Shown: positions 8,372-22,839 of the stretch, piece after piece
Numbering within the stretch: the stretch's first letter is position 1
Layout: each line of letters starts with the position of its first letter
DNA from: a virus
Virus record (IMG/VR): IMGVR_UViG_3300042868_008767
Span: 1 to 26,878 of that record
Direction: 5' to 3' (one strand)
DNA: 26,878 nt
The notes under the pieces: model-generated
Database searches by the model: none
Told to the model about the DNA's origin: nothing
The model's input: the letters and a program-made list of their open reading frames with translations, nothing else
Translations under genes and position numbers: made by a program

Positions 8372-8905
8372 ATGGAAACTAAAAAATGTACAAAATGTCA
8401 TGAAGAAAAATCTAAAGGTGAGTTTTTCAAATCACCTAGAAATAAAAATGGTTTTAGGTCTCAATGTAAAGTTTGTGAGAACAAAGCTAATTTAGCTAGG
8501 CAGAGCAAGTATTCTAGAACAGAGTATTATCAAAGCGATGTGTATAAAGAAGTTAAAAGAAATTATTATAAAAATAATAGTGAAAAAATTCTAATTGATA
8601 ATGCAGCTTGGAGACAAACACTAAAAGGTCGTTTATTATCATATAAAATAGCTGCTAAAAAAAGAAATATTGAATGGAGTTTGACTGATGAAGAATTTGA
8701 AAATTTTTGGCAAAAACCTTGTACTTATTGTGGTGATGAAATTAAAACAGTCGGTATTGATAGACTTGAAAATGATAAAGGATATTATCTTGAAAATTGC
8801 ACTTCATGTTGTTCAACGTGTAACACGATGAAATTGGCTATGACCAAAACAGAATTCATAGAAAAAATAAAAATAATATTAATAAATTTAAAAGAAAAAT
8901 TATGA
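8372..8905 (+). CDS. HNH homing endonuclease, free-standing
   Basis: This is a predicted site-specific DNA endonuclease acting as a mobile gene. Two Cys pairs near the N-terminus (CTKCH and CKVCEN) form a zinc-binding segment that precedes a basic linker. The C-terminal HNH/zinc module contains CTYCGDE, the active-site-like IDRLENDKGYYLENC and CSTCNTMK, which match phage HNH homing enzymes. It separates the NADAR and macrodomain genes, which otherwise would be adjacent, and its stop overlaps the macrodomain start (ATGA, 8902-8905), so the insertion keeps the downstream gene coupled. A shared 17-nt element lies 8 bases upstream of its start. No truncated copy of a flanking gene was found here, unlike at the Vsr-like insertion. 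Confidence 0.92.
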   Translation: METKKCTKCHEEKSKGEFFKSPRNKNGFRSQCKVCENKANLARQSKYSRTEYYQSDVYKEVKRNYYKNNSEKILIDNAAWRQTLKGRLLSYKIAAKKRNIEWSLTDEEFENFWQKPCTYCGDEIKTVGIDRLENDKGYYLENCTSCCSTCNTMKLAMTKTEFIEKIKIILINLKEKL

Positions 8906-13549: not shown

Positions 13550-14398
13550 ATGAAAAAGACACTTACAGACGTAGAAAAAATTGATTTAGTTACACTATAT
13601 TTAGATGGTGTATCTATTAAAGAATTAAGTAAAAAATATGATAGAGCTGAATCATCAGTCAGAGATTTAATTAAACGAAGAGGTGTTAAGTTAAGACCTT
13701 TAACCGAAGTTAATAGAAAATTTGAAATTCATGAGGATTTTTTTAATGTGATTGATACCGATGAAAAAGCTTATTTTTTAGGTTTCTTATATGCTGATGG
13801 TAACGTTAAGACTAACAAAAACATGGTTGTTTTAGTGTTGAAAGAGAGTGATAGAGAAATTCTAGAACGTTTAAATAAACTAATACATGTTGATAAACCA
13901 TTATTTCTAGAAAAAAATAAAAGAGATGGTGATAGGGAAAATACAGTTGGTATTAGAATATGTAATAAAAACATAACTGAGAAGTTAATCAAACACGGTT
14001 GTCACCCAAATAAAACATTTACTTTAACATTTCCAGAATGGTTAAATGAAAGTCTTTATAGTAGTTTTATACGTGGTTATTTTGATGGTGATGGTTATAT
14101 TGGTATTATTCGTGATTCCAGAAAAGATAAGAATGGTGTGCAATATGATAAATATTATCATAAGTTTACACTTACTGGTAATGAAGTGTTTTTAAGAGAA
14201 GTCGCTAATGTGTTTAAACAATATTTAGATGTCAACACATCTTTTGAAATTAGGTATAAAGATAGGGACAATGGAATTGTTACTATGACTATTAAAGGTG
14301 GTAATCAAATAATAAAACTTTACGATTTTTTATACACTAAATCTAATTTATTTTTAAATAGAAAACATGAAATTTTTAAAAAAATAAAAAATAATTAA
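13550..14398 (+). CDS. LAGLIDADG homing endonuclease, free-standing
   Basis: This is a monomeric two-motif LAGLIDADG endonuclease. The motifs are LGFLYADG at about 77-84 and FIRGYFDGDG at 173-182, each with the terminal acidic residue that binds the catalytic metal. The first 50 residues form a helix-turn-helix (DGVSIKELSKKYDRAESSVRDLIKRRG), as in many phage versions where it helps binding or regulation. It is clearly a paralogue of the intron-encoded enzyme at 18856-19746, which has the same HTH-plus-double-motif layout and the same IDTxEKAYxLGFxYADG lead. It sits between prs and the Thg1-like gene with no visible intron core around it, so it appears intergenic. Both neighbours look intact. 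Confidence 0.93.
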   Translation: MKKTLTDVEKIDLVTLYLDGVSIKELSKKYDRAESSVRDLIKRRGVKLRPLTEVNRKFEIHEDFFNVIDTDEKAYFLGFLYADGNVKTNKNMVVLVLKESDREILERLNKLIHVDKPLFLEKNKRDGDRENTVGIRICNKNITEKLIKHGCHPNKTFTLTFPEWLNESLYSSFIRGYFDGDGYIGIIRDSRKDKNGVQYDKYYHKFTLTGNEVFLREVANVFKQYLDVNTSFEIRYKDRDNGIVTMTIKGGNQIIKLYDFLYTKSNLFLNRKHEIFKKIKNN

Positions 14399-14424: not shown

Positions 14425-15198
14425 ATGAAATTAAGTGATAGAATAAAAGAGTTTTATGAGAATAGAACAAAAACGTTTTTACCAAGACGTATGATAACAA
14501 TAATTAGACTTGATGGTAAAAGTTTTTCAAAATGGACAAAAAATTTAGAAAAACCTTTTGACGATGGTTTTAGTGATGATATGGATGCAACAGCGGTTTA
14601 TTTATGTGAAAACATACAAGGCGCTAAATTTGCGTATACACAATCTGACGAAATAACTGTGGTATTAACTGACTTTGATTCTTTAGATTCTCAAGCATGG
14701 TTTGATTATAATGTTCAAAAAATGACTAGCATTTCAGCTAGTCTAGCGACAGCCAAATTCAACCAATTAAGAATGTTTAGGGAAGGTTATGACTCAGAAT
14801 ATAAATTAGCGTGTTTTGATGCTAGAGTTTTTCAAGTTCCAGACATCGAAGAAATGATTAACACAATAATTTGGAGACAACAAGACTGTACTAGAAATAG
14901 TGTTAGTATGGCTGCACACGCTTTGTTAGGTCACTCAGCCACTATGAACAAGTCTAGTGATGAAAAACAAGATATGCTTTTCAAAGAAAAAGGTGTCAAC
15001 TGGAATGATTATAAAGTCAAATACAAAAGAGGTGTTGTTATAAAAAAACAAACCATTTGGGTTGATGGTCAAAACGGTGAACCAGTTCAAAGAAGCAAAT
15101 GGCTTCCAGACTACAACATACCAATTTTTACACAAGAAAAAGAATATTTGTATAATTTGATTCCAGTAATTCAAATTACTGAGGATAATATTGCATAA
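14425..15198 (+). CDS. Thg1-like tRNA-His guanylyltransferase, 257 aa
   Basis: Thg1 family enzymes add G to the 5' end of tRNA-His or, as Thg1-like proteins, repair 5' ends of tRNAs by 3'-to-5' polymerisation. Diagnostic sequences are RRMITIIRLDGKSFSKWT (about 21-38) with metal ligands D30 and the G31 backbone, and the second metal site in YTQSDEITVVL (D75, E76). The helix SISASLATAKFNQLR follows as in the family, and the later CFDARVFQVPD and WRQQDCTRNSVSMAAH blocks match. Length suits the family. The gene starts 26 nt after the LAGLIDADG gene. In a phage it may repair tRNAs damaged by anticodon or acceptor nucleases of the host, or mature phage tRNAs; none is found in this window. Confidence 0.94.
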   Translation: MKLSDRIKEFYENRTKTFLPRRMITIIRLDGKSFSKWTKNLEKPFDDGFSDDMDATAVYLCENIQGAKFAYTQSDEITVVLTDFDSLDSQAWFDYNVQKMTSISASLATAKFNQLRMFREGYDSEYKLACFDARVFQVPDIEEMINTIIWRQQDCTRNSVSMAAHALLGHSATMNKSSDEKQDMLFKEKGVNWNDYKVKYKRGVVIKKQTIWVDGQNGEPVQRSKWLPDYNIPIFTQEKEYLYNLIPVIQITEDNIA

Positions 15199-15221
15199 TT
15201 CACATTTTTTGTGTATATTTG
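15191..15221 (+). promoter_or_regulatory. Bacteroidota-type promoter for the large metallophosphoesterase
   Basis: TTG at 15191-15193, inside the last codons of the Thg1-like gene, a 20-nt spacer and TATATTTG at 15214-15221 match the consensus. The start at 15254 is 32 nt past the -7 box. Confidence 0.78.
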
Positions 15222-15253
15222 TTAAAATAACATTTTGATAATATAAAAAATTA

Positions 15254-16843
15254 ATGAAGTTTAAAGACCTTTCGGTAAAAGACAAACAACACATTTATGA
15301 TGTTTATCATAAAAAAGATGATGGCCCATGGGAAAAAAGGGCGTCAAAATTAGGTGAACATTTCGGTGTTTCTGAACGTACTATTAGGAAATGGTGTGCT
15401 GAAAAATTAGGGTTTAAAGAAAAAGTAGATTCCGAACCTGAGCAGTATATTAAAGCAAAAGAAAAACAGCATGATGCTGAAAAAAAACGTTTTATAGTTA
15501 CGTGGGCACAAAACAACACACCAGTCCATAAGAAACTGTTGAGAAACATGGAAGCTTATGCTGAATTTATTGAAGCTGAAATCTTGGTAATCGCTGGGAG
15601 ATACAAAAACCCTACGAGTATCTGGACACAGAATAATAAAAACGAAGAACATTGGAAAAAAGAGGTTGAACCTTACTTGGATGCCAACAGACATGACGTA
15701 CATAGATTTGTGTCGATTATGTCAGATATCAAAGTACAACCAACAGCTGTAAACCCTATGACTGGAATGCAAGCCCTTAGCGGAGTTAATTCATGTATCT
15801 TTGGTAGTCCGAAGGTACAACTAGAGATGATTCCCGTGTTGGAAGGAAACAAACCAAAAATCATGCTTACCACTGGTGCGCTTACAATGAAGAACTACAC
15901 TGATGCTAAAGCTGGTAAAGTTGGAGAATTTCACCATACGTTTGGTTTTGCTATTGTTGAAATAAAAGATGATGAAACATTTTTTGTTAGACAAGTAACT
16001 GCCGATGATAAGTCTGGTAATTTTACAGATTTAATCTATCGCGTTCATGATGGTAGTATTAGTCAAATAAACTCAATAGCAGCTGCTGTGTTGGGTGATA
16101 TACACTACGGTCACCATGACCAAGAAGTGTTAGACACTACACTATCATTTTTGAACAAAATAAAACCAGAACATGTTGTGTTGCACGATGTGTTTGATGG
16201 TGATTCAATTAGCCACCACCAGATGAAAGACCCTTTTATTCAATATGGTAAAGAAATGACTGGAACCAATGATTTGGAGAAAGAGGTTAACGCAATGATG
16301 GTTGGTCTTGAACCATTTGAGAAATTTAACAATGTGGTAATTGTAAGAAGTAACCACGATGATTTCTTGGATAGATGGTTGAAGAACGAGGATTGGAAGA
16401 AACAACCTACGTATAAGAATTCTAGATTGTACATGAAGTATTCTGATATTTTGTTAGAACAGTATGGTAGAGACCCTTATAGCGTTAAAGGTGTTATTCC
16501 TAGTCTTATCAATGATAAGTTTCCTAAATTCAAAACTCTTGGAAGAGCAGCTTCTTACAAGGTAAAAGGATGGGAGTTAGGACAACACGGTGATATTGGT
16601 TCAAACGGTAGTAGAGGTTCTTTGTTACAGTTTAGAAAATTGAATACAAAGATTGTAGTTGGTCATTACCACAGTCCAGGTCGTAAGGATGGTGCTGTAG
16701 CGGTTGGAACAACGACTAGACTACGAGTTGGGTACAATCAAGGACCAAGTTCTTGGTTACAATCACACGTTATTATTCATAACGATGGTAGAGCTCAGCA
16801 TTTGAACTTTATTGATGGTGAGTTTACAACGTTTAAAATTTAA
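15254..16843 (+). CDS. Large metallophosphoesterase with N-terminal HTH, possibly T5 A1-like
   Basis: The 529-residue protein begins with a helix-turn-helix (KRASKLGEHFGVSERTIRKWCAEKLG, about 27-52), followed by a charged linker. A middle domain has TTGALTMKNYTDAKAGKVGEFHHTFGFAIVEI, a pattern I associate with phage DNA-transfer proteins such as T5 A1. The C-terminal half is a calcineurin-like phosphoesterase: LGDIHYGHHD, HDVFDGD, VRSNHDD and VVGHYHSPG give the metal ligands in order. T5 A1 is needed for host DNA degradation and second-step DNA transfer, so an early host-takeover role is possible. The T5 link is from memory and not firm; the metallophosphoesterase assignment is firm. The gene is monocistronic, with a promoter ahead and a strong terminator behind. 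Confidence 0.85.
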   Translation: MKFKDLSVKDKQHIYDVYHKKDDGPWEKRASKLGEHFGVSERTIRKWCAEKLGFKEKVDSEPEQYIKAKEKQHDAEKKRFIVTWAQNNTPVHKKLLRNMEAYAEFIEAEILVIAGRYKNPTSIWTQNNKNEEHWKKEVEPYLDANRHDVHRFVSIMSDIKVQPTAVNPMTGMQALSGVNSCIFGSPKVQLEMIPVLEGNKPKIMLTTGALTMKNYTDAKAGKVGEFHHTFGFAIVEIKDDETFFVRQVTADDKSGNFTDLIYRVHDGSISQINSIAAAVLGDIHYGHHDQEVLDTTLSFLNKIKPEHVVLHDVFDGDSISHHQMKDPFIQYGKEMTGTNDLEKEVNAMMVGLEPFEKFNNVVIVRSNHDDFLDRWLKNEDWKKQPTYKNSRLYMKYSDILLEQYGRDPYSVKGVIPSLINDKFPKFKTLGRAASYKVKGWELGQHGDIGSNGSRGSLLQFRKLNTKIVVGHYHSPGRKDGAVAVGTTTRLRVGYNQGPSSWLQSHVIIHNDGRAQHLNFIDGEFTTFKI

Positions 16844-16846
16844 AAT

Positions 16847-16878
16847 AAAAAGTGGAATAAAAAGTTCCACTTTTTTTT
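16847..16878 (+). terminator. Intrinsic terminator after the large metallophosphoesterase
   Basis: A perfect 11-bp inverted repeat, AAAAAGTGGAA (16847-16857) and TTCCACTTTTT (16865-16875), with a 7-nt loop, runs into further T. It begins four bases after the stop codon. Confidence 0.88.
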
Positions 16879-16907
16879 GTTTTATTAAAATAATGTTAGT
16901 ATCTTTG
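16877..16907 (+). promoter_or_regulatory. Bacteroidota-type promoter giving a near-leaderless transcript
   Basis: TTG at 16877-16879, at the end of the terminator T tract, a 20-nt spacer and TATCTTTG at 16900-16907 match the consensus. The ATG at 16912 is only four bases beyond the -7 box, so the mRNA should have almost no leader. Confidence 0.8.
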
Positions 16908-16911
16908 TATT

Positions 16912-17322
16912 ATGAAAGAAATAATTTTGGATTTTGATGGCACGTGTACGACACACGACTTTCCATTTGTTGGTAAAGACATTGGTTCTGTACCTGTTTT
17001 AAAAAAGTTGGTTGAAAAAGGACATAAACTTATATTGTTTACAATGCGTAGCCATAGACCTTATATCCATTCAGATGGTAAGACAAGAGATTGTCTTCAA
17101 GATGCAATAGATTGGTTTGCAAATAATGATATTCCATTGTATGGGATAAATACTAACCCAACACAACATGAATGGACGGATAGTCCTAAAGCTTATGGTC
17201 AGCTTATGATTGATGATATAGCAATTGGAGTACCTTTAAAATTTGATAAGGAATTATCACCAAGACCATTTGTTGATTGGTTTTATTTAGAAATAATGTT
17301 AAACGCAAATAATTTAATATAA
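16912..17322 (+). CDS. HAD-superfamily hydrolase, 136 aa
   Basis: This is a small HAD hydrolase resembling the Bacteroides BT_0820-type proteins. Motif I is LDFDGTCT with D7 and D9; LFTMRS is the motif II Thr region; LMIDDIAIG supplies the motif IV acidic pair. The segment GKDIGSVPVLKKLVEKGHKLILFTMR is typical of family members found in Bacteroidota and their phages. All catalytic residues are present, so phosphatase activity is likely, although the substrate is unknown. The start lies directly under its promoter. The stop overlaps the next start (TAATG). Confidence 0.88.
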   Translation: MKEIILDFDGTCTTHDFPFVGKDIGSVPVLKKLVEKGHKLILFTMRSHRPYIHSDGKTRDCLQDAIDWFANNDIPLYGINTNPTQHEWTDSPKAYGQLMIDDIAIGVPLKFDKELSPRPFVDWFYLEIMLNANNLI

Positions 17323-17498
17323 TGTACAAAATACCTTTACACGTATTAGAAGGGTTGTTAAACTCTCTAGAAAAATCAAATGCAGTTTTAAAAAAACTTG
17401 CTGAACAAGACGATTCTCTTGCGATACAAGAAGCGATAAGAGAAAATGACAAACAAATACAAATTTTAAAACTTAATTTCCGTTTCAATGGTAACTAA
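17322..17498 (+). CDS. Small helical protein, 58 aa
   Basis: ATG 17322 overlaps the HAD stop (TAATG), and the frame ends at TAA 17496-17498, overlapping the next gene by 11 bases. The product is mostly helical and heptad-like: EGLLNSLEKSNAVLKKLAEQ, then DSLAIQEAIRENDKQIQILKL, so a short coiled coil is likely. No family is recognised. It is accepted because it fills the interval between two solid genes with coupling on both sides; without it 165 bases would be empty. Confidence 0.72.
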   Translation: MYKIPLHVLEGLLNSLEKSNAVLKKLAEQDDSLAIQEAIRENDKQIQILKLNFRFNGN

Positions 17499-17841
17499 AG
17501 AACAAATTGAATTTTCAGAATTCTTAGAAATAGAAAACAAATTGGATATTCGTATCGGCAAAATAAAAGCTGCTGAACGTGTACCAAAAAGCGATAAGCT
17601 TTTGAAATTGACCGTAATCTTTGGTATAACCGAAGAAGATGAAAAAACAGTAGTTACTAACATTGGCTCTAGTGTAGAACCAGATACGTTGGTTGATTTG
17701 ACAATGCCATTCATCGTAAACCTTAAACCATCAAAAATGATGGGTATTACCAGCGAAGCTATGATTGTAGTAGGTACTGACGATGCAGGTCGAATGCAAG
17801 TTGGTTTAGATTACATGGGTGTAGGAACAAAACTATTGTAA
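17488..17841 (+). CDS. Stand-alone tRNA-binding OB-fold domain, 117 aa
   Basis: The protein is a tRNA-binding domain of the MetRS C-terminal / Arc1p / CsaA type. Typical features are FLEIENKLDIRIGKIKAAERVPKSDKLLKLTV, followed by KTVVTNIGSSVEPDTLVDL and the closing NLKPSKMMGITSEAMIV. In cells this OB fold is attached to methionyl-tRNA synthetase, or acts free as a dimer that binds tRNA or as a CsaA-type chaperone. Here it is free, with no synthetase. It may bind tRNA for phage translation or processing by Thg1 at 14425, but this is inference. Start at 17488 overlaps the preceding small gene; a two-base gap separates it from the Nudix gene. Confidence 0.9.
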   Translation: MVTKEQIEFSEFLEIENKLDIRIGKIKAAERVPKSDKLLKLTVIFGITEEDEKTVVTNIGSSVEPDTLVDLTMPFIVNLKPSKMMGITSEAMIVVGTDDAGRMQVGLDYMGVGTKLL

Positions 17842-17843
17842 AC

Positions 17844-18299
17844 ATGGGTAAGACTATTGCATCGGGTTTGTTTATTGTCAAAAAAGACAATAAAGTTTTG
17901 ATTTGTCACCCGACAAACCACCCACCAAATGTTTACAGCATACCAAAGGGTAAAGTAGAAGACGATGAAATCTTCTTAGAAGCTGCGTTTAGGGAAACAT
18001 ACGAAGAAACCAACTTAGACCTTAATGGTTCAACTGACTTTACAATATACCCATTGAATTCTGTCAACTATAAGCATAAGAAAAAAATGCTTTACCCTTT
18101 CTTAGTGTACGAAAACAAGAATTCTAAGTTTGATTGGGATGGGGTTGAATTGAAATGCAATTCAAACGTACCTGAGGACAGAGGTGGGTTTCCTGAAATG
18201 GACGGTTACAAATGGGTTACGTTGGATGAAGCTTCTAAAGTTTTACATGATACACAAGTTAAGTGTTTAGACAAGATTAAAGAAATAATTGAACAATGA
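17844..18299 (+). CDS. Nudix hydrolase, 151 aa
   Basis: This is a stand-alone Nudix hydrolase with a canonical box: GKVEDDE, seven residues, then REtYEETNL within residues about 36-56 (sequence runs PKGKVEDDEIFLEAAFRE). It should cleave a nucleoside diphosphate linked to another moiety; candidates include oxidised nucleotides, NADH, ADP-ribose or capped RNA ends. The N-terminal strand ASGLFIVKKDNKVLICHPT is typical of MutT-like proteins. It is separate from the Nudix domain fused to NMNAT at 2827-3807. Its stop overlaps the Smr gene (ATGA). Substrate cannot be inferred. Confidence 0.93.
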   Translation: MGKTIASGLFIVKKDNKVLICHPTNHPPNVYSIPKGKVEDDEIFLEAAFRETYEETNLDLNGSTDFTIYPLNSVNYKHKKKMLYPFLVYENKNSKFDWDGVELKCNSNVPEDRGGFPEMDGYKWVTLDEASKVLHDTQVKCLDKIKEIIEQ

Positions 18300-18520
18300 A
18301 ACTAGATTTACACGGATTAAGACATAGCGAAGTTCCAGACGTGTTAGATTCATTTGTTTGGGATTGCATTAGACTTGGTGTCGACCAAGCAGAGATTATC
18401 ACTGGAAATTCGACAGAAATGAAAACAATAGTAAAAAACATATTGATGGATTACGGTTTAGAACCATGTAATTTCTTTAATTTAGGCGGTAGTGTTACCG
18501 TTGATTTTGTAACAATTTAA
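18296..18520 (+). CDS. Smr-domain protein, 74 aa
   Basis: This is a minimal Smr (small MutS-related) domain. It begins with the signature LDLHGLRHSEV (3-13), continues with the helix VLDSFVWDCIRLG, then the IITGNSTEMKTIVKNIL block equivalent to the family's HGKG region, where GNS replaces G-x-G. Smr domains bind or cut nucleic acids; bacterial SmrB cleaves mRNA at collided ribosomes. With RNase R, IF3 and Thg1 in this window it fits an RNA-handling theme. Only the domain core is present, so it may need a partner. The start is coupled to the Nudix stop by ATGA. Confidence 0.85.
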   Translation: MKLDLHGLRHSEVPDVLDSFVWDCIRLGVDQAEIITGNSTEMKTIVKNILMDYGLEPCNFFNLGGSVTVDFVTI

Positions 18521-18532
18521 AATTTAATATAA

Positions 18533-18805
18533 ATGGCTGAAGTAAAAAAAGTCTGGAATGCCGATGGTAACGCCTTGTATTTAGGGTATCCCTCACAAGA
18601 GTTTGAAAAACTCGAAAATGTAATTTACAAAGTATCTTTGGATATGTTCGAAAGACCTTATCTTTCAAAAGTTGCTGACAACTTTACGTTTGATTACAAA
18701 TTATATGGTTTGGAAACCGATTTTATCAATCGTGTTATCAAAACATACAACGCAACGGATAACGGAAACTTAGGTATCTTGTTAAACGGTCTTAAAGGAA
18801 CTGGT
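18533..18805 (+). CDS. AAA+ ATPase, exon 1 (residues 1-91)
   Basis: This is the 5' exon of an AAA+ ATPase broken by a group I intron. Read through without splicing it would stop two codons later, after GTGNC. The exon ends at GGT 18805, in the middle of Walker A. Joined with 19981 onward, the codons read GLKGTG-KT-VSSKQ, restoring the P-loop at residues 86-93. The total product is 420 aa. The N-terminal 80 residues precede the ATPase core and include YPSQEFEKLENVIYKVSLDMF; no domain is recognised there. It has core similarity to the AAA+ protein at 1437-2756. Function of the assembled protein is unknown. Confidence 0.9.
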
Positions 18806-18855
18806 AATTGTTAAACTTTTTATAATCTTTTAGATATTTATATGTAAAAGATATT

Positions 18856-19746
18856 ATGAATATAGTTGAACAATATGAAAGTGGTAAAAGTGCTACTAAA
18901 ATTTCAAAAGAAACTGGGATTAGTTTGCACAAAGTTCTTAAACAGTTAAAACACGAAGGTGTTAAAGTTTATAACAAACAAAATGAAATTAAATGGGATG
19001 TTAATGAATTTGTTAGTTTATATAACAAAGGGTATAGTTTAGTTGAAATTGGTAAACAATTTAATTTATCTACAGCTACAATATCTAATGCTTTAAAGAA
19101 AATAAACTTTAAGGTTGTAAATAAACAAAACATAACAAAATTTAATGAAAATGTTTTTGATGTAATAGATACTGAAGAAAAAGCTTATTGGTTAGGTTTT
19201 ATTTATGCTGACGGTTATGTTTCAAGTAGTAGAAACACTTTTGAACTTAGCTTGGCGTTAAAAGATATAAATCATTTAATTAAATTCGCTAAATTTATGT
19301 CATATGAAAAAAATGTTAAAAATGACGATTATAGATGTAGATTCTATGTTGTTAATAAACATTTTAAACAAACATTAATAAATTTAGGTGTTATCCCTAA
19401 TAAATCATTAATATTAACATTTCCTAATTCATCACAAATACCACATAATTTGGTCAACCATTTCATTAGAGGTTATTACGATGGTGATGGTACTATTCTA
19501 ACAAAAGAAACTAGCAAAGTTAAACTTAGAGTTTCTTTATTAGGTACTGAATCATTTTTAAATAGTGTTCTTAATACGATTGAAATCGATAAGAAATTAT
19601 ATCAAACAACGTCAAATGTTAAATATTTTTCGTTAGCGATAAAAGATTCTGAAAAATTTTTAAAATTTTTGTATAAAGATACTACTGTTTATTTGGACAG
19701 AAAATATGACCTATATAAAAAGTATTGCCGTTCTAGTCAGAAATGA
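18856..19746 (+). CDS. Intron-encoded LAGLIDADG homing endonuclease, 296 aa
   Basis: This is a two-motif LAGLIDADG endonuclease: WLGFIYADG at 112-120 and FIRGYYDGDG at 203-212. The first 90 residues hold two helix-turn-helix-like segments (GKSATKISKETGISLHKVLKQ and YSLVEIGKQFNLSTATISNAL), one more than in its paralogue at 13550. It presumably cleaves intronless copies of the Walker A site of this AAA+ gene, driving homing. A TATTTATA element lies at 18835-18842, 14 nt before the start. Its 3' end, around 19721-19734, seems also to carry the intron's internal guide sequence, so the coding region overlaps the ribozyme. Family and role are confident. Confidence 0.94.
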   Translation: MNIVEQYESGKSATKISKETGISLHKVLKQLKHEGVKVYNKQNEIKWDVNEFVSLYNKGYSLVEIGKQFNLSTATISNALKKINFKVVNKQNITKFNENVFDVIDTEEKAYWLGFIYADGYVSSSRNTFELSLALKDINHLIKFAKFMSYEKNVKNDDYRCRFYVVNKHFKQTLINLGVIPNKSLILTFPNSSQIPHNLVNHFIRGYYDGDGTILTKETSKVKLRVSLLGTESFLNSVLNTIEIDKKLYQTTSNVKYFSLAIKDSEKFLKFLYKDTTVYLDRKYDLYKKYCRSSQK

Positions 19747-19980
19747 TTAGAATTATGAGAGGGTAAAAACGGTGAAGGCTGTGATGCTAATACCGTGCTA
19801 AGCTAACTAATTTCGAAAGGTAGTTAGACAGTGTAACGCATAGGAGATGAATAAATATAATTCTCCCACGAGTATCCTCCATCTTAACGAATAATGTCGA
19901 AGATGAAAATGTATGCTGAGCTATAGTGAAAAAGAAGCTATAGAACTATAGGATAAAAAGCTTATAGGGTAACAAAACTG
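19721..19980 (+). ncRNA. Group I ribozyme core and possible internal guide sequence
   Basis: GCCGTTCT (19727-19734) can pair with the exon 1 end AGGAACTGGT, giving a U-G pair at the splice site if one exon C is bulged, which is the P1 arrangement. The six bases before it, AGTATT, pair with five of the first six exon 2 bases AAAACT (P10). Core segments follow up to the terminal G. If right, the LAGLIDADG gene lies in the P1 loop. The pairing was done by eye. Confidence 0.6.
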
Positions 19981-20970
19981 AAAACTGTGAGTTCAAAACA
20001 AATTGCTAATCAGCTAAATCAGCCTATTATCATTGTTGGTGAAAATAAACCACAATATCCACCATTCTTAAATGGTATTCCTCAAAATATCACGATATTT
20101 ATTGATGAGTATGAGAAGACATTTGGCAACGCGTCAAATATGCTTACAATTATGGATGGTGCATCAAATTCTGAGTATAGACGTGTGTTTTTGTTAACAA
20201 CCAACGAATTGAGAGTTGAATCTAATATGATTCAAAGACCAGGTCGTGTTCGTTACCTTAAAACATTCGACCACTTGAAACCAGCTGTTATCAAAGAAAT
20301 CGTTGATGATATTTTGGTTCACAAACAATTCACAAACGATTGTATTCAATTCATTTCAAGTCTTGAAACAATTACAGTGGATATTGTTAAGGCAGTGTTG
20401 AATGAGGTTAACATTCATGAAGAAGCACCAACAGCGTTTGAAACTATCTTTAACGTTAAAAAACTTAGAGGTAAGTACAATGTGTCTATTCGTGAGGAAG
20501 ACGGTACACTTACTGAAATCGCTTCAAATATTGGTGTTCATCCGAGACCAATGTTTAACGAAGGTAATGTTGGTTACGGGTTAGAAGTTGATAGTGTGAC
20601 AGTTGGTGAAATCGTAAGAGTTGTTAACTACAACACAGTTGAGGTTGAACCATATGAATTGGAAGACGGTTCACCAGTTGGTTTCAAAGAAAACATCATG
20701 GTTAAAATCGAAGATGCTGATTTAATAAACTACGCTTACGCTTATGATGGCTTCGGAAGTACTCAAGTTTCTAGACCTAAAAAGAAATCTTCTGATTTCC
20801 TTAAAAACATTTCCAAAGAATGGGATGATTATGAAAAAGGTCGTAGAAACGGGAATACAAAACCATCACGTGATTTTGCTAAAATCAGTCAGCCATTTTC
20901 TGACGCAGAAAATGAAGTGATGAGTGAACAATCATTTGAGATGCCAGAAAATGGTATCATGGGTGGGTAA
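19981..20970 (+). CDS. AAA+ ATPase, exon 2 (residues 92-420)
   Basis: Exon 2 begins with AAA ACT, the Lys and Thr of Walker A. It continues with Walker B ITIFIDEYEK (D133, E134 in the spliced protein), sensor-1 LLTTNE, and the arginine-finger segment QRPGRVRYL. A C-terminal region of about 150 residues contains a beta-rich section (EDGTLTEIASNIGVHPRP) and a charged tail with RPKKKSSDFLKNISKEWDDYEKGRRNG. A GTG at 19987 could start an unspliced reading frame, but that would lose the P-loop, so it is not taken as a start. The stop at 20970 is followed by a 29-nt gap to the next gene. Confidence 0.92.
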   Translation, partial: KTVSSKQIANQLNQPIIIVGENKPQYPPFLNGIPQNITIFIDEYEKTFGNASNMLTIMDGASNSEYRRVFLLTTNELRVESNMIQRPGRVRYLKTFDHLKPAVIKEIVDDILVHKQFTNDCIQFISSLETITVDIVKAVLNEVNIHEEAPTAFETIFNVKKLRGKYNVSIREEDGTLTEIASNIGVHPRPMFNEGNVGYGLEVDSVTVGEIVRVVNYNTVEVEPYELEDGSPVGFKENIMVKIEDADLINYAYAYDGFGSTQVSRPKKKSSDFLKNISKEWDDYEKGRRNGNTKPSRDFAKISQPFSDAENEVMSEQSFEMPENGIMGG

Positions 20971-20999
20971 CATAACATTTTGATAACTATGAAAAAGAA

Positions 21000-21200
21000 A
21001 TGGTTAGTAAAAAAACAATCGATTTAGGTGAATACATTGTAAATATCACCTATGATAATGAAACAGGTGCTATATCTGTTGACGTTTTAGATGAATTACA
21101 TGAATTAATCGAATCGATGAACATTACCAATATCGAAGACTCTAGGGGTGACGATGAGGATAATGATGCTGCCATAGACATAGATATCAGTTTAAATTAA
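21000..21200 (+). CDS. Small acidic protein, 66 aa
   Basis: This is a small protein with a beta-rich start (MVSKKTIDLGEYIVNITYDNETGAISVDVL) and a very acidic tail (EDSRGDDEDNDAAIDIDISLN). No domain is recognised. It begins 29 nt after the AAA+ stop and ends four bases before the original start of the deoxyribosyltransferase-like gene at 21205. An alternative ATG at 20989 is in another frame and gives only 12 residues. Spacing and composition support coding; function is unknown. Confidence 0.72.
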   Translation: MVSKKTIDLGEYIVNITYDNETGAISVDVLDELHELIESMNITNIEDSRGDDEDNDAAIDIDISLN

Positions 21201-21204
21201 TCTT

Positions 21205-21303
21205 ATGCAAAAAGCTATAGAGATTCAAGCGCCAAACCAAGTTACTATTGACCAAGAATACGTTAATGTATTCTTGGCTGGTAGTATTGAAAATATTTTT
21301 TAA
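21205..21303 (+). pseudogene. Orphaned original 5' end of the deoxyribosyltransferase-like gene
   Basis: The frame gives a 32-residue peptide, MQKAIEIQAPNQV...FLAGSIENIF, then stops. Its first 30 residues match the start of the intact protein at 22372 in 21 positions, ending at the conserved FLAGSIEN motif. After ATT GAA AAT (21286-21294) the sequence departs into the inserted endonuclease element. This is the severed native start of the gene, with native spacing to its upstream neighbour. It could still be translated into a short peptide. Homology is seen directly; the order of events is inferred. Confidence 0.92.
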
Positions 21304-22461
21304 TTTTTTGGCAATTTTGTTATATTTATAATAAAAAGATTATGAATAAAACTGCACACAATAAAATTATTTGGTCAAATGAAGAAGTTGAAATGTTAAA
21401 AGAAAAATATGAAATTTTTACTAATAAAGAGTTATCAGTAATTTTAAACAAATCAACTAGAAATGTTGCTAGAAAATTAAAAGAATTGTCTTTGTATAAA
21501 AATTTAGATAAAGTAAGAAATATAAAATCTAGAATTAACAAAGAAAACGGGACTGATTTGAGTTATGATTATGTAGCTAATATTTCTAAAAAATTCACTA
21601 CTAAAAATGAATTTTATCAATTTGAGACTAATGTGTATAACAAAGCAGTTAAAGAAGGTTGGTTGAAAGAAATAACTAATCACATGATTGTTAAAAGGGT
21701 TAGTTTACCACAATTAATTTTGAAAGATATTTTAGAATTTATTATAGATGCCGATTGTTCTTATAACGATAGAACAGTTATTAAACCATATGAAATTGAT
21801 TGTTATTTTCCAACATTTAAAATTGGTTGGGAATATAATGGTAGATATTTTCATACTGATGAAAAAGATGAATTTAAAGTAAAACTTTGTTTAGATAAGG
21901 GTATATCTCTTTTTTCAATTAATGAAAAAAGTAAAACTTTTAGAAAATACGAAAAAAACATAAAGAATCAATTAATAAAACAAATAAGTGATATTAATCA
22001 ATTAACAGGTTTAAATATAACTAAAGAAATGATTTTAAACTATAAAATCAATATTAAACCACCAAATGTTTTAAGTGATTATGAAAAAAACGAAGTTTTT
22101 GGTAAAAAATTAAGCCAAATTAGAAAAACTAATTTAAAACTTTATAATAAAATTAAAAATTTTAATATAGTTAAAGATGAAAGTTTAGGTATTATTGACG
22201 ATATTAAAACTTTTAAAAAATTTGAAAATTTCGATGAATATTTAGAGTTTATTACAGATAATAATATATCTAGTTTTAATGAGCTATGTAAAATTGAACA
22301 TCCTCATAGAAGAGTAAAAAAATGGGGTATTAATATAAAAGAACTCCATAATTTTTTAACAAATAAAAAAAATGAAAATAGCAGTTGAAGTACAGGCCCC
22401 TAATCAAGTAGTGATAGATGAAAATTATATAAATATATTTTTAGCGGGGTCAATTGAAAAT
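21295..22461 (+). mobile_element. Vsr-like endonuclease element carrying a recoded 5' gene end
   Basis: The segment between the two ATTGAAAAT copies (21286-21294 and 22453-22461) holds a 47-nt leader, a Vsr-like homing endonuclease and a 90-nt replacement for the first 30 codons of the interrupted gene. Of 21 residues shared by the old and new N-termini, 15 use different codons. The three codons at the junction are identical. The exact right boundary may lie further downstream if more of the gene was replaced. No terminal inverted repeat or integrase was seen. Confidence 0.8.
21342..22388 (+). CDS. Vsr-like (EDxHD) homing endonuclease, 348 aa
   Basis: This is a predicted DNA endonuclease of the Vsr-like PD-(D/E)xK type. 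The N-terminus has a Myb/HTH-like segment (WSNEEVEMLKEKYE...TNKELSVILNKSTRNVARKLKEL, 11-49). The catalytic stretch is EIDCYFPTFKIGWEYNGRYFHTDEK at about 151-175, with E151, D153, E164 and H171 matching the EDxHD layout, followed by GISLFSINE. Small repeated modules (NKAVKEGWLKEITNHM, and near the C-terminus ISSFNELCKIEHPHRRVKKWGI) resemble DNA-binding repeats of this family. The gene breaks the 5' end of the deoxyribosyltransferase-like gene. Its last 17 bases overlap the replacement start at 22372 in another frame, tying its own C-terminus to the rescued gene. A TATTTATA element lies at 21323-21330. Confidence 0.88.
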   Translation: MNKTAHNKIIWSNEEVEMLKEKYEIFTNKELSVILNKSTRNVARKLKELSLYKNLDKVRNIKSRINKENGTDLSYDYVANISKKFTTKNEFYQFETNVYNKAVKEGWLKEITNHMIVKRVSLPQLILKDILEFIIDADCSYNDRTVIKPYEIDCYFPTFKIGWEYNGRYFHTDEKDEFKVKLCLDKGISLFSINEKSKTFRKYEKNIKNQLIKQISDINQLTGLNITKEMILNYKINIKPPNVLSDYEKNEVFGKKLSQIRKTNLKLYNKIKNFNIVKDESLGIIDDIKTFKKFENFDEYLEFITDNNISSFNELCKIEHPHRRVKKWGINIKELHNFLTNKKNENSS

Positions 22462-22839
22462 GGAAAAGCGATAGAATGGCAAAAAGAATTTATTGCCGCG
22501 TTGTCTGATAAAAATATCAGATTTCTTAACCCAAGAAGAGATGATTGGGATTCATCATGGGGGCAAACAATCGATGACCCTAAATTTGTTGAACAAGTTC
22601 AATGGGAATTAAATTCAATGGAAATGTCACACATAATAGTTATGGTTATCGACCCAGCAACTCTTTCACCAGTTACAATGATTGAATTTGGGTTACACGC
22701 CAAAGAACAAAAACTTATGGTAGTATGTCCAGATGGATTCTGGAAAAAAGGTAACGTGGATGTAACATGTGAGTTTTATGGTATCAATCAATTTGATACT
22801 ATGGATGAATTAATCGAATTTATGAGAAAACACATATAA
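22372..22839 (+). CDS. Nucleoside 2-deoxyribosyltransferase-like protein, 155 aa
   Basis: This protein resembles the Nuc_deoxyrib_tr_2 family: IFLAGSIENGKAIEWQKEF at 23-41, FLNPRRDDWDSSW, a QVQWELNSMEMSHIIVMVIDP segment and SPVTMIEFGLHA (with the catalytic-type Glu). Members transfer deoxyribose between bases or cleave N-glycosidic bonds; in phages they may recycle or alter nucleotides. The first 30 codons come with the inserted Vsr-like element and use codons unlike the native 5' end at 21205. The start overlaps the endonuclease end by 17 bases. The gene therefore appears repaired and functional despite the insertion. IF3 follows with no gap. Confidence 0.9.
   Translation: MKIAVEVQAPNQVVIDENYINIFLAGSIENGKAIEWQKEFIAALSDKNIRFLNPRRDDWDSSWGQTIDDPKFVEQVQWELNSMEMSHIIVMVIDPATLSPVTMIEFGLHAKEQKLMVVCPDGFWKKGNVDVTCEFYGINQFDTMDELIEFMRKHI

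Follow-up and report, generated by a model that had tools for sequence, protein, structure and literature searches.

Gene hybrids with mobile endonuclease open reading frames (ORFs) have been described in atp6 of Allomyces macrogynus and in atp6, atp9, cox2 and nad3 of Glomus, and in Glomus atp6 the native piece shows 91% and the inserted piece 64% nucleotide identity, with the protein nearly unchanged (PMC3630166). In Tremella fuciformis, endonuclease-bearing introns bring along a foreign sequence homologous to a portion of the host gene, and replacement of the native part by this homologue has been proposed (PMC7315562). Among phages, nrdA of Aeromonas phage Aeh1 is split by mobE and the topoisomerase gene of T4 by mobA, and retention of function after the mobE split has been shown for nrdA (PMC2988022). 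HomeR is an engineered, CRISPR-based home-and-rescue gene drive that was deliberately recoded (PMC7968924). Here we describe a phage locus in which a homing endonuclease gene interrupts a deoxyribosyltransferase-like gene, and in which a second, foreign start of the same gene is joined in frame to the native body.

Organization of the interrupted gene

The locus lies in one metagenomic virus record of 26,878 bases, analysed at its full length and hereafter called the window; its features are listed in Table 1. The severed start (21205–21294) reads MQKAIEIQAPNQVTIDQEYVNVFLAGSIEN; between it and the stop lie two foreign codons, ATT TTT. The second start reads MKIAVEVQAPNQVVIDENYINIFLAGSIEN and continues in frame through the gene body, giving an ORF of 155 aa (22372–22839) that is nucleoside 2-deoxyribosyltransferase-like (PF15891, E = 2.8e-32), spans the full length of the gene in related phages and presumably still encodes a working enzyme. 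This second start (22372–22461) overlaps the endonuclease ORF by 17 bases, at the 3′ end of the latter. A structure model of the chimeric enzyme was set aside at a pLDDT of 45.5 (shallow alignment), and a promoter scan of the spacer gave no signal above chance.

Table 1. Coordinates of the features at the interrupted locus (window positions).
Feature	Position	Strand	Evidence
Native 5′ end of deoxyribosyltransferase-like gene, codons 1–29 plus one base	21205–21292	+	Nucleotide identity to relatives
Orphan of 32 codons left from the native start, stop at TAA 21301–21303		+	Sequence
44-bp inverted repeat in native start	21243–21286	+	Predicted hairpin, −20 kcal/mol
Left junction and AT-rich spacer (~11% GC) of insert	21293–21341	+	Composition; without counterpart in relatives
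Hef/Vsr-like (EDxHD) homing endonuclease gene, 348 aa	21342–22388	+	Profiles, fold, catalytic residues
Foreign 5′ end replacing the native one, codons 1 to ~33	22372–22472	+	Nucleotide identity; breakpoint scan
Native gene body, in frame with replacement start	22473–22839	+	40-bp identical run with L002

The two starts have 21 of 30 residues in common, of which 15 are encoded by different codons, and six codons are identical. A tblastn search of the window with the gene as query recovered the first start at E = 5.7e-10, so its likeness to the second is not a matter of chance. Nucleotide identity between the starts is 58/90, and the longest identical run, at the end of both, is the 9-bp ATTGAAAAT, which makes easy recombinational loss of the insert unlikely.

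Native and foreign portions of the gene

A search of viral contigs yielded five relatives of the gene (L001–L005, four of them distinct) with 80–87% protein identity, each carrying one uninterrupted gene copy in the same gene order. The severed start shows 81–82% nucleotide identity to the relatives and is indistinguishable in this respect from the gene body in the comparisons with L001–L003 (Fisher P = 0.23–0.29). The joined start shows 62–69% identity, significantly below the 86–87% of the body (L001–L003, Fisher P = 1.6e-4 to 6.7e-7). The upstream flank together with the native start aligns with L002 and L003 at 86–87%, and the alignment stops at 21291/21292. Both copies in the window have AAT as codon 30, whereas all five relatives have ATG, which places the end of native sequence at 21291/21292 and implies that this lineage already had AAT or that two bases match by chance.

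A two-rate scan placed a single breakpoint at gene nucleotides (nt) 100–102 (support 80–112), that is, near window position 22472, with a strength reached by 15, 0 and 0 of 2000 codon permutations for L001, L002 and L003, respectively; no comparable break appeared when the native start was placed before the body for analysis. The foreign stretch thus extends slightly beyond codon 30, to about codon 33, and from gene nt 102 onwards 40 bases are identical with L002. On these nucleotide comparisons, 21205–21292 is confirmed as the phage's own gene start and the start at 22372 as foreign, and because the joined start is diverged from the relatives, the body is native-like and a single breakpoint separates them, the gene is, as judged from sequence, a mosaic of foreign codons 1 to ~33 and a native body.

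The preliminary description had placed the endonuclease inside a gene whose second start restores a full-length frame, and had proposed alignment with insertion-free relatives, location of the point at which native sequence resumes and comparison of start with rest as checks. Its coordinates and counts for both starts, the ORF and the overlap were all reproduced, the three comparisons above agree with an insertion, the restored frame is complete relative to the uninterrupted copies, so that the rescue part of its reading has good support, and its suggestion that low identity between the starts hinders loss by recombination is supported by the 9-bp run.

The endonuclease gene

The 348-aa gene appears to be an intact Vsr/EDxHD (Hef-like) homing endonuclease with all catalytic residues present, in line with the Vsr-like assignment made at first reading. 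It matched the phage homing-endonuclease family phrog_3339 (E = 4.4e-12), the profile of which matched the catalytic domain of I-Bth0305I (3r3p, E = 2.3e-9), and 3r3p was also the top Foldseek match of the predicted fold (probability 1.00, E = 8.6e-3, TM 0.68 over target; core pLDDT mostly 77–93). The protein has HTH-like helices at the N-terminus and a nuclease core at about residues 122–195, in which E151, D153, E164, H171 and K179 are invariant among 19 sequences including the window's copy, and are also present in the wider Hef set.

The same N-terminal plus nuclease architecture occurs in a subfamily of about 27 loci (L211–L236, L035). These closest relatives are free-standing and mostly lie beside a gene that, on a reading of the neighbouring ORFs, is PhoH-like, and none of them carries a duplicated host-gene piece. 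The Hef-like genes of L211–L236 recur beside the PhoH-like gene in different phage contigs, which suggests a conserved target near it. A free-standing phage Hef gene in Shigella phage vB_SdyM_006 overlaps the next gene by 14 bp, compared with 17 bp here.

At least four endonuclease genes lie in the 27 kb of the window. An AAA ATPase gene (18533–20970) is interrupted at its P-loop, between GTG and KT, by a LAGLIDADG endonuclease gene (18856–19746), and the region after the latter resembles crAss-like phage sequence (77–89%); the interruption, at 18807–19983, is probably a group I intron missed by Rfam. Two further free-standing genes, LAGLIDADG and HNH/endonuclease VII-like, lie at 13550–14398 and 8372–8905, respectively.

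A hairpin in the severed start

The right edge of the inverted repeat in the native start lies 5–6 bp before the left junction. Its core motif is kept in all five relatives (for example, L001 5039–5064, L002 5048–5073 and L003 4603–4628), and the replacement start is devoid of the 44-bp hairpin. Protein-preserving shuffles folded as well in 0/500 cases for the window, L002 and L003 and in 4/500 for L001, and, one overlapping stretch apart, only 2 of 5736 equally long coding stretches folded better. The hairpin could mark a spot prone to template switching or breakage, act in regulation at the mRNA level, or belong to the region bound by the endonuclease; the prototype of the EDxHD family dimerises on about 60 bp (PMC3943268). 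That the repeat by itself would suffice as the cut site of the endonuclease is disfavoured, since it survives whole in the carrier.

Codon differences between the two starts

Differing codons at same-residue positions were compared with independent draws from the codon usage of the phage. The replacement differed from the native start at 15/20 codons (10.2 expected, P = 0.02), from L001 at 13/21 (11.4 expected, P = 0.31), from L002 at 16/20 (10.7 expected, P = 0.01) and from L003 at 12/17 (9.1 expected, P = 0.11), the four comparisons not being mutually independent. Synonymous sites therefore appear saturated, perhaps slightly beyond. Since the synonymous difference equals or marginally exceeds saturation, selection for new codons is not needed, and on a plain reading of the sequences a long-diverged donor allele would explain the change. 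The recoding of the replacement start put forward in the preliminary description is thus not upheld as stated. The pattern next to the junction is suggestive: codons 23–27 are the same in the native start, L001 and L003 and nearly so in L002, and all of them differ in the replacement.

Searches for donors and other carriers

Searches of viral, phage, plasmid and genome collections revealed no donor-type phage, in which an endonuclease gene would immediately precede a patch-like gene, and near the other gene copies fetched there was no endonuclease of such families, one unrelated LAGLIDADG gene excepted. Neither its peptides nor the motif GWEYNG retrieved close homologues of the endonuclease from viral contigs, and plasmids yielded no relatives of it. 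IENGKA-type homologues of the deoxyribosyltransferase-like gene show that distant copies often have N as their codon 30 residue, but none has a patch-like start. Bacterial homologues were rejected as donor (about 41–53% identical, with unrelated starts). In Lak-B phages, a Hef-like gene lies 3 kb from the deoxyribosyltransferase gene, which is regarded as coincidence because other genes, including smpB, lie between them and the deoxyribosyltransferase gene is whole.

A screen for host-gene pieces beside about 230 endonuclease loci (~160 Hef-like, 81 LAGLIDADG), covering 1500–2500 bases per side by protein similarity, a range in which very short or diverged pieces would escape, revealed no second carrier. 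Apparent carriers proved to be tandem or repeated endonuclease modules (L033, L043, L078, L083, L100, L108, L109, L265), non-coding repeats (L098, L079) or paralogous genes (L276). In L033, L043, L078, L083 and L109, Hef-like genes stand back to back, some with near-identical N-terminal starts, and the Hef-like gene regions of L265 carry in-frame TAG codons, which suggests that this phage reads TAG as a residue.

Proposed origin of the locus

We consider it rather likely that the locus arose by repair, driven by the endonuclease, from a diverged phage with an endonuclease gene just upstream of the same gene. This reading is favoured because the relatives have one uninterrupted gene, because the native start groups with them and the joined start does not, and because there is a single breakpoint and the codon differences are near saturation, not clearly beyond it. 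The donor layout that it requires is one in which free-standing phage Hef genes do occur, placed between other genes and slightly overlapping the following one, and the closest relatives of the endonuclease are likewise free-standing and carry no host-gene piece. Against it stands the failure of the collections searched to yield a donor-type phage.

The Hef-like EDxHD endonuclease would have cut the intact deoxyribosyltransferase gene just after codon 29. The cut site would fall between gene nt ~88 and ~112, since native sequence extends to nt 88 on the left and is back by ~112 on the right. The break would then have been mended on a co-infecting diverged relative in which the endonuclease gene immediately preceded the corresponding gene copy. 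On the right side, homologous repair would have copied the donor start and first ~33 codons, with the exchange resolved in the conserved stretch at gene nt ~102–141; on the left, the copied segment would have been attached to what remained of the native start with no homology or no more than a few bases of it. An upstream-endonuclease donor with homologous joining on the right and non-homologous joining on the left would yield exactly the structure observed, and double-strand-break homing is known to leave co-conversion of sequence beyond the insertion point (PMC2988022). The product would be an endonuclease gene plus a foreign start that runs in frame into the native body, leaving the native start as a dead fragment and keeping a full-length enzyme, presumably translated from the start inside the 3′ end of the endonuclease gene. 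Provided that the endonuclease cuts the native site and that the new start resists it, the segment could, in theory, invade relatives with an intact gene and repair the damage that it causes, and may act as a home-and-rescue element whatever its origin.

Alternative explanations

The endonuclease and patch may instead form a dedicated mobile unit, the patch being kept diverged and thereby escaping both cleavage and recombination with the broken start, a possible explanation that we find doubtful. Such a unit would have the present structure as well, and it would account for the FLAGS stretch, where codons 22–27 all differ from relatives that are almost invariant (bar ATA in L001), and for synonymous change above saturation relative to the native start and L002; elements in Glomus and Allomyces bear the same signature, and mobility of the endonuclease was shown there (PMC3630166). 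However, the excess was not significant relative to L001 and L003, and such a unit predicts more carriers, which did not appear among the Hef-like and LAGLIDADG loci screened. We regard as unlikely a phage home-and-rescue drive in which the patch was selected away from the target, including loss of the hairpin next to the cut region; if true, such a drive unit would cut rivals, restore the broken gene, resist its own nuclease and be undeletable by recombination.

An assembly chimera of two related phages is very unlikely. The window is a metagenomic contig, the 16–40 bp identical to relatives that abut the right breakpoint are long enough for a false join, and a near-identical contig from another sample (L131, IMGVR 3300042154_003049), which is the same phage species (99.6% identical to window 14856–20810), ends ~480 bp before the left junction. 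Against this, no more than 9 bp at the left junction recur elsewhere in the locus, too short for an assembler join, and both flanks show a coherent reading frame and gene order.

A tandem pair of paralogues, one of them (the first) cut short when the endonuclease inserted, would agree with two starts in the same orientation, but is highly improbable: the relatives, free of the endonuclease, are single-copy without tandem N-terminal versions, and the second gene combines a native body with a foreign start, which would require an extra recombination. Restoration of the original gene by splicing, through a group I intron or an intein, is hardly credible, although 1.3 kb upstream another gene is interrupted by a group I-like intron that contains a LAGLIDADG gene. 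An intein is ruled out by the stop after two codons, and splicing is unnecessary given the complete second start, which a codon 29 to codon 31 splice would discard. No Rfam match at E ≤ 0.5 was obtained in 18400–22600, which is weak evidence because the upstream intron is missed as well.

Comparison with known systems

If the gene was indeed repaired from a diverged phage, the locus would offer a route for swapping gene starts between phage lineages, and a warning that phage gene trees can be mosaic beside endonuclease genes. The window's endonuclease gene has its nuclease core, catalytic residues and phage location in common with Hef of phage U5 and with I-Bth0305I. Hef of phage U5 is free-standing and I-Bth0305I is intron-encoded, and we know of no target-gene piece carried by either.

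As in Aeh1 nrdA and the T4 topoisomerase gene, a phage gene is interrupted by a homing endonuclease gene with no splicing element; there, however, both halves are needed and assemble as separate polypeptides, whereas here the second frame is complete. The piece carried by the Tremella introns is similar to the exon that lies downstream (3′ side) of the insert, despite the name "N-terminal duplication", and the introns are mitochondrial (PMC7315562). The logic of HomeR is similar, in that a gene is cut, an insertion made and the gene restored with sequence that no longer matches the target; HomeR was deliberately recoded, whereas the divergence here may be ordinary, and the locus may be a phage-based counterpart to such engineered drives.

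The closest likeness is to Allomyces and Glomus, in which an endonuclease likewise lies inside a gene and a foreign copy of the severed end is fused in frame to the native rest. The preliminary description called this precedent distant; the likeness stands and the distance does not, since Glomus atp6 has the same pattern, though at the 3′ end (PMC3630166). In the fungal cases the 3′ (C-terminal) end is replaced, in mitochondria, with LAGLIDADG or GIY-YIG enzymes, unlike the 5′ end with a new start codon, the phage setting and the EDxHD enzyme seen here. In the open-access literature we found no description of a replaced 5′ end, nor of any such element in a phage. An endonuclease gene that brings a replacement for the severed end can reside in a protein-coding gene and needs neither intron nor intein to do so; replacement of a 3′ end requires only an open frame, and that of a 5′ end also a new start, which is supplied here from inside the endonuclease gene. 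By analogy, the locus may be viewed as the 5′ mirror image, in a phage, of the 3′-end replacement of fungal mitochondria.
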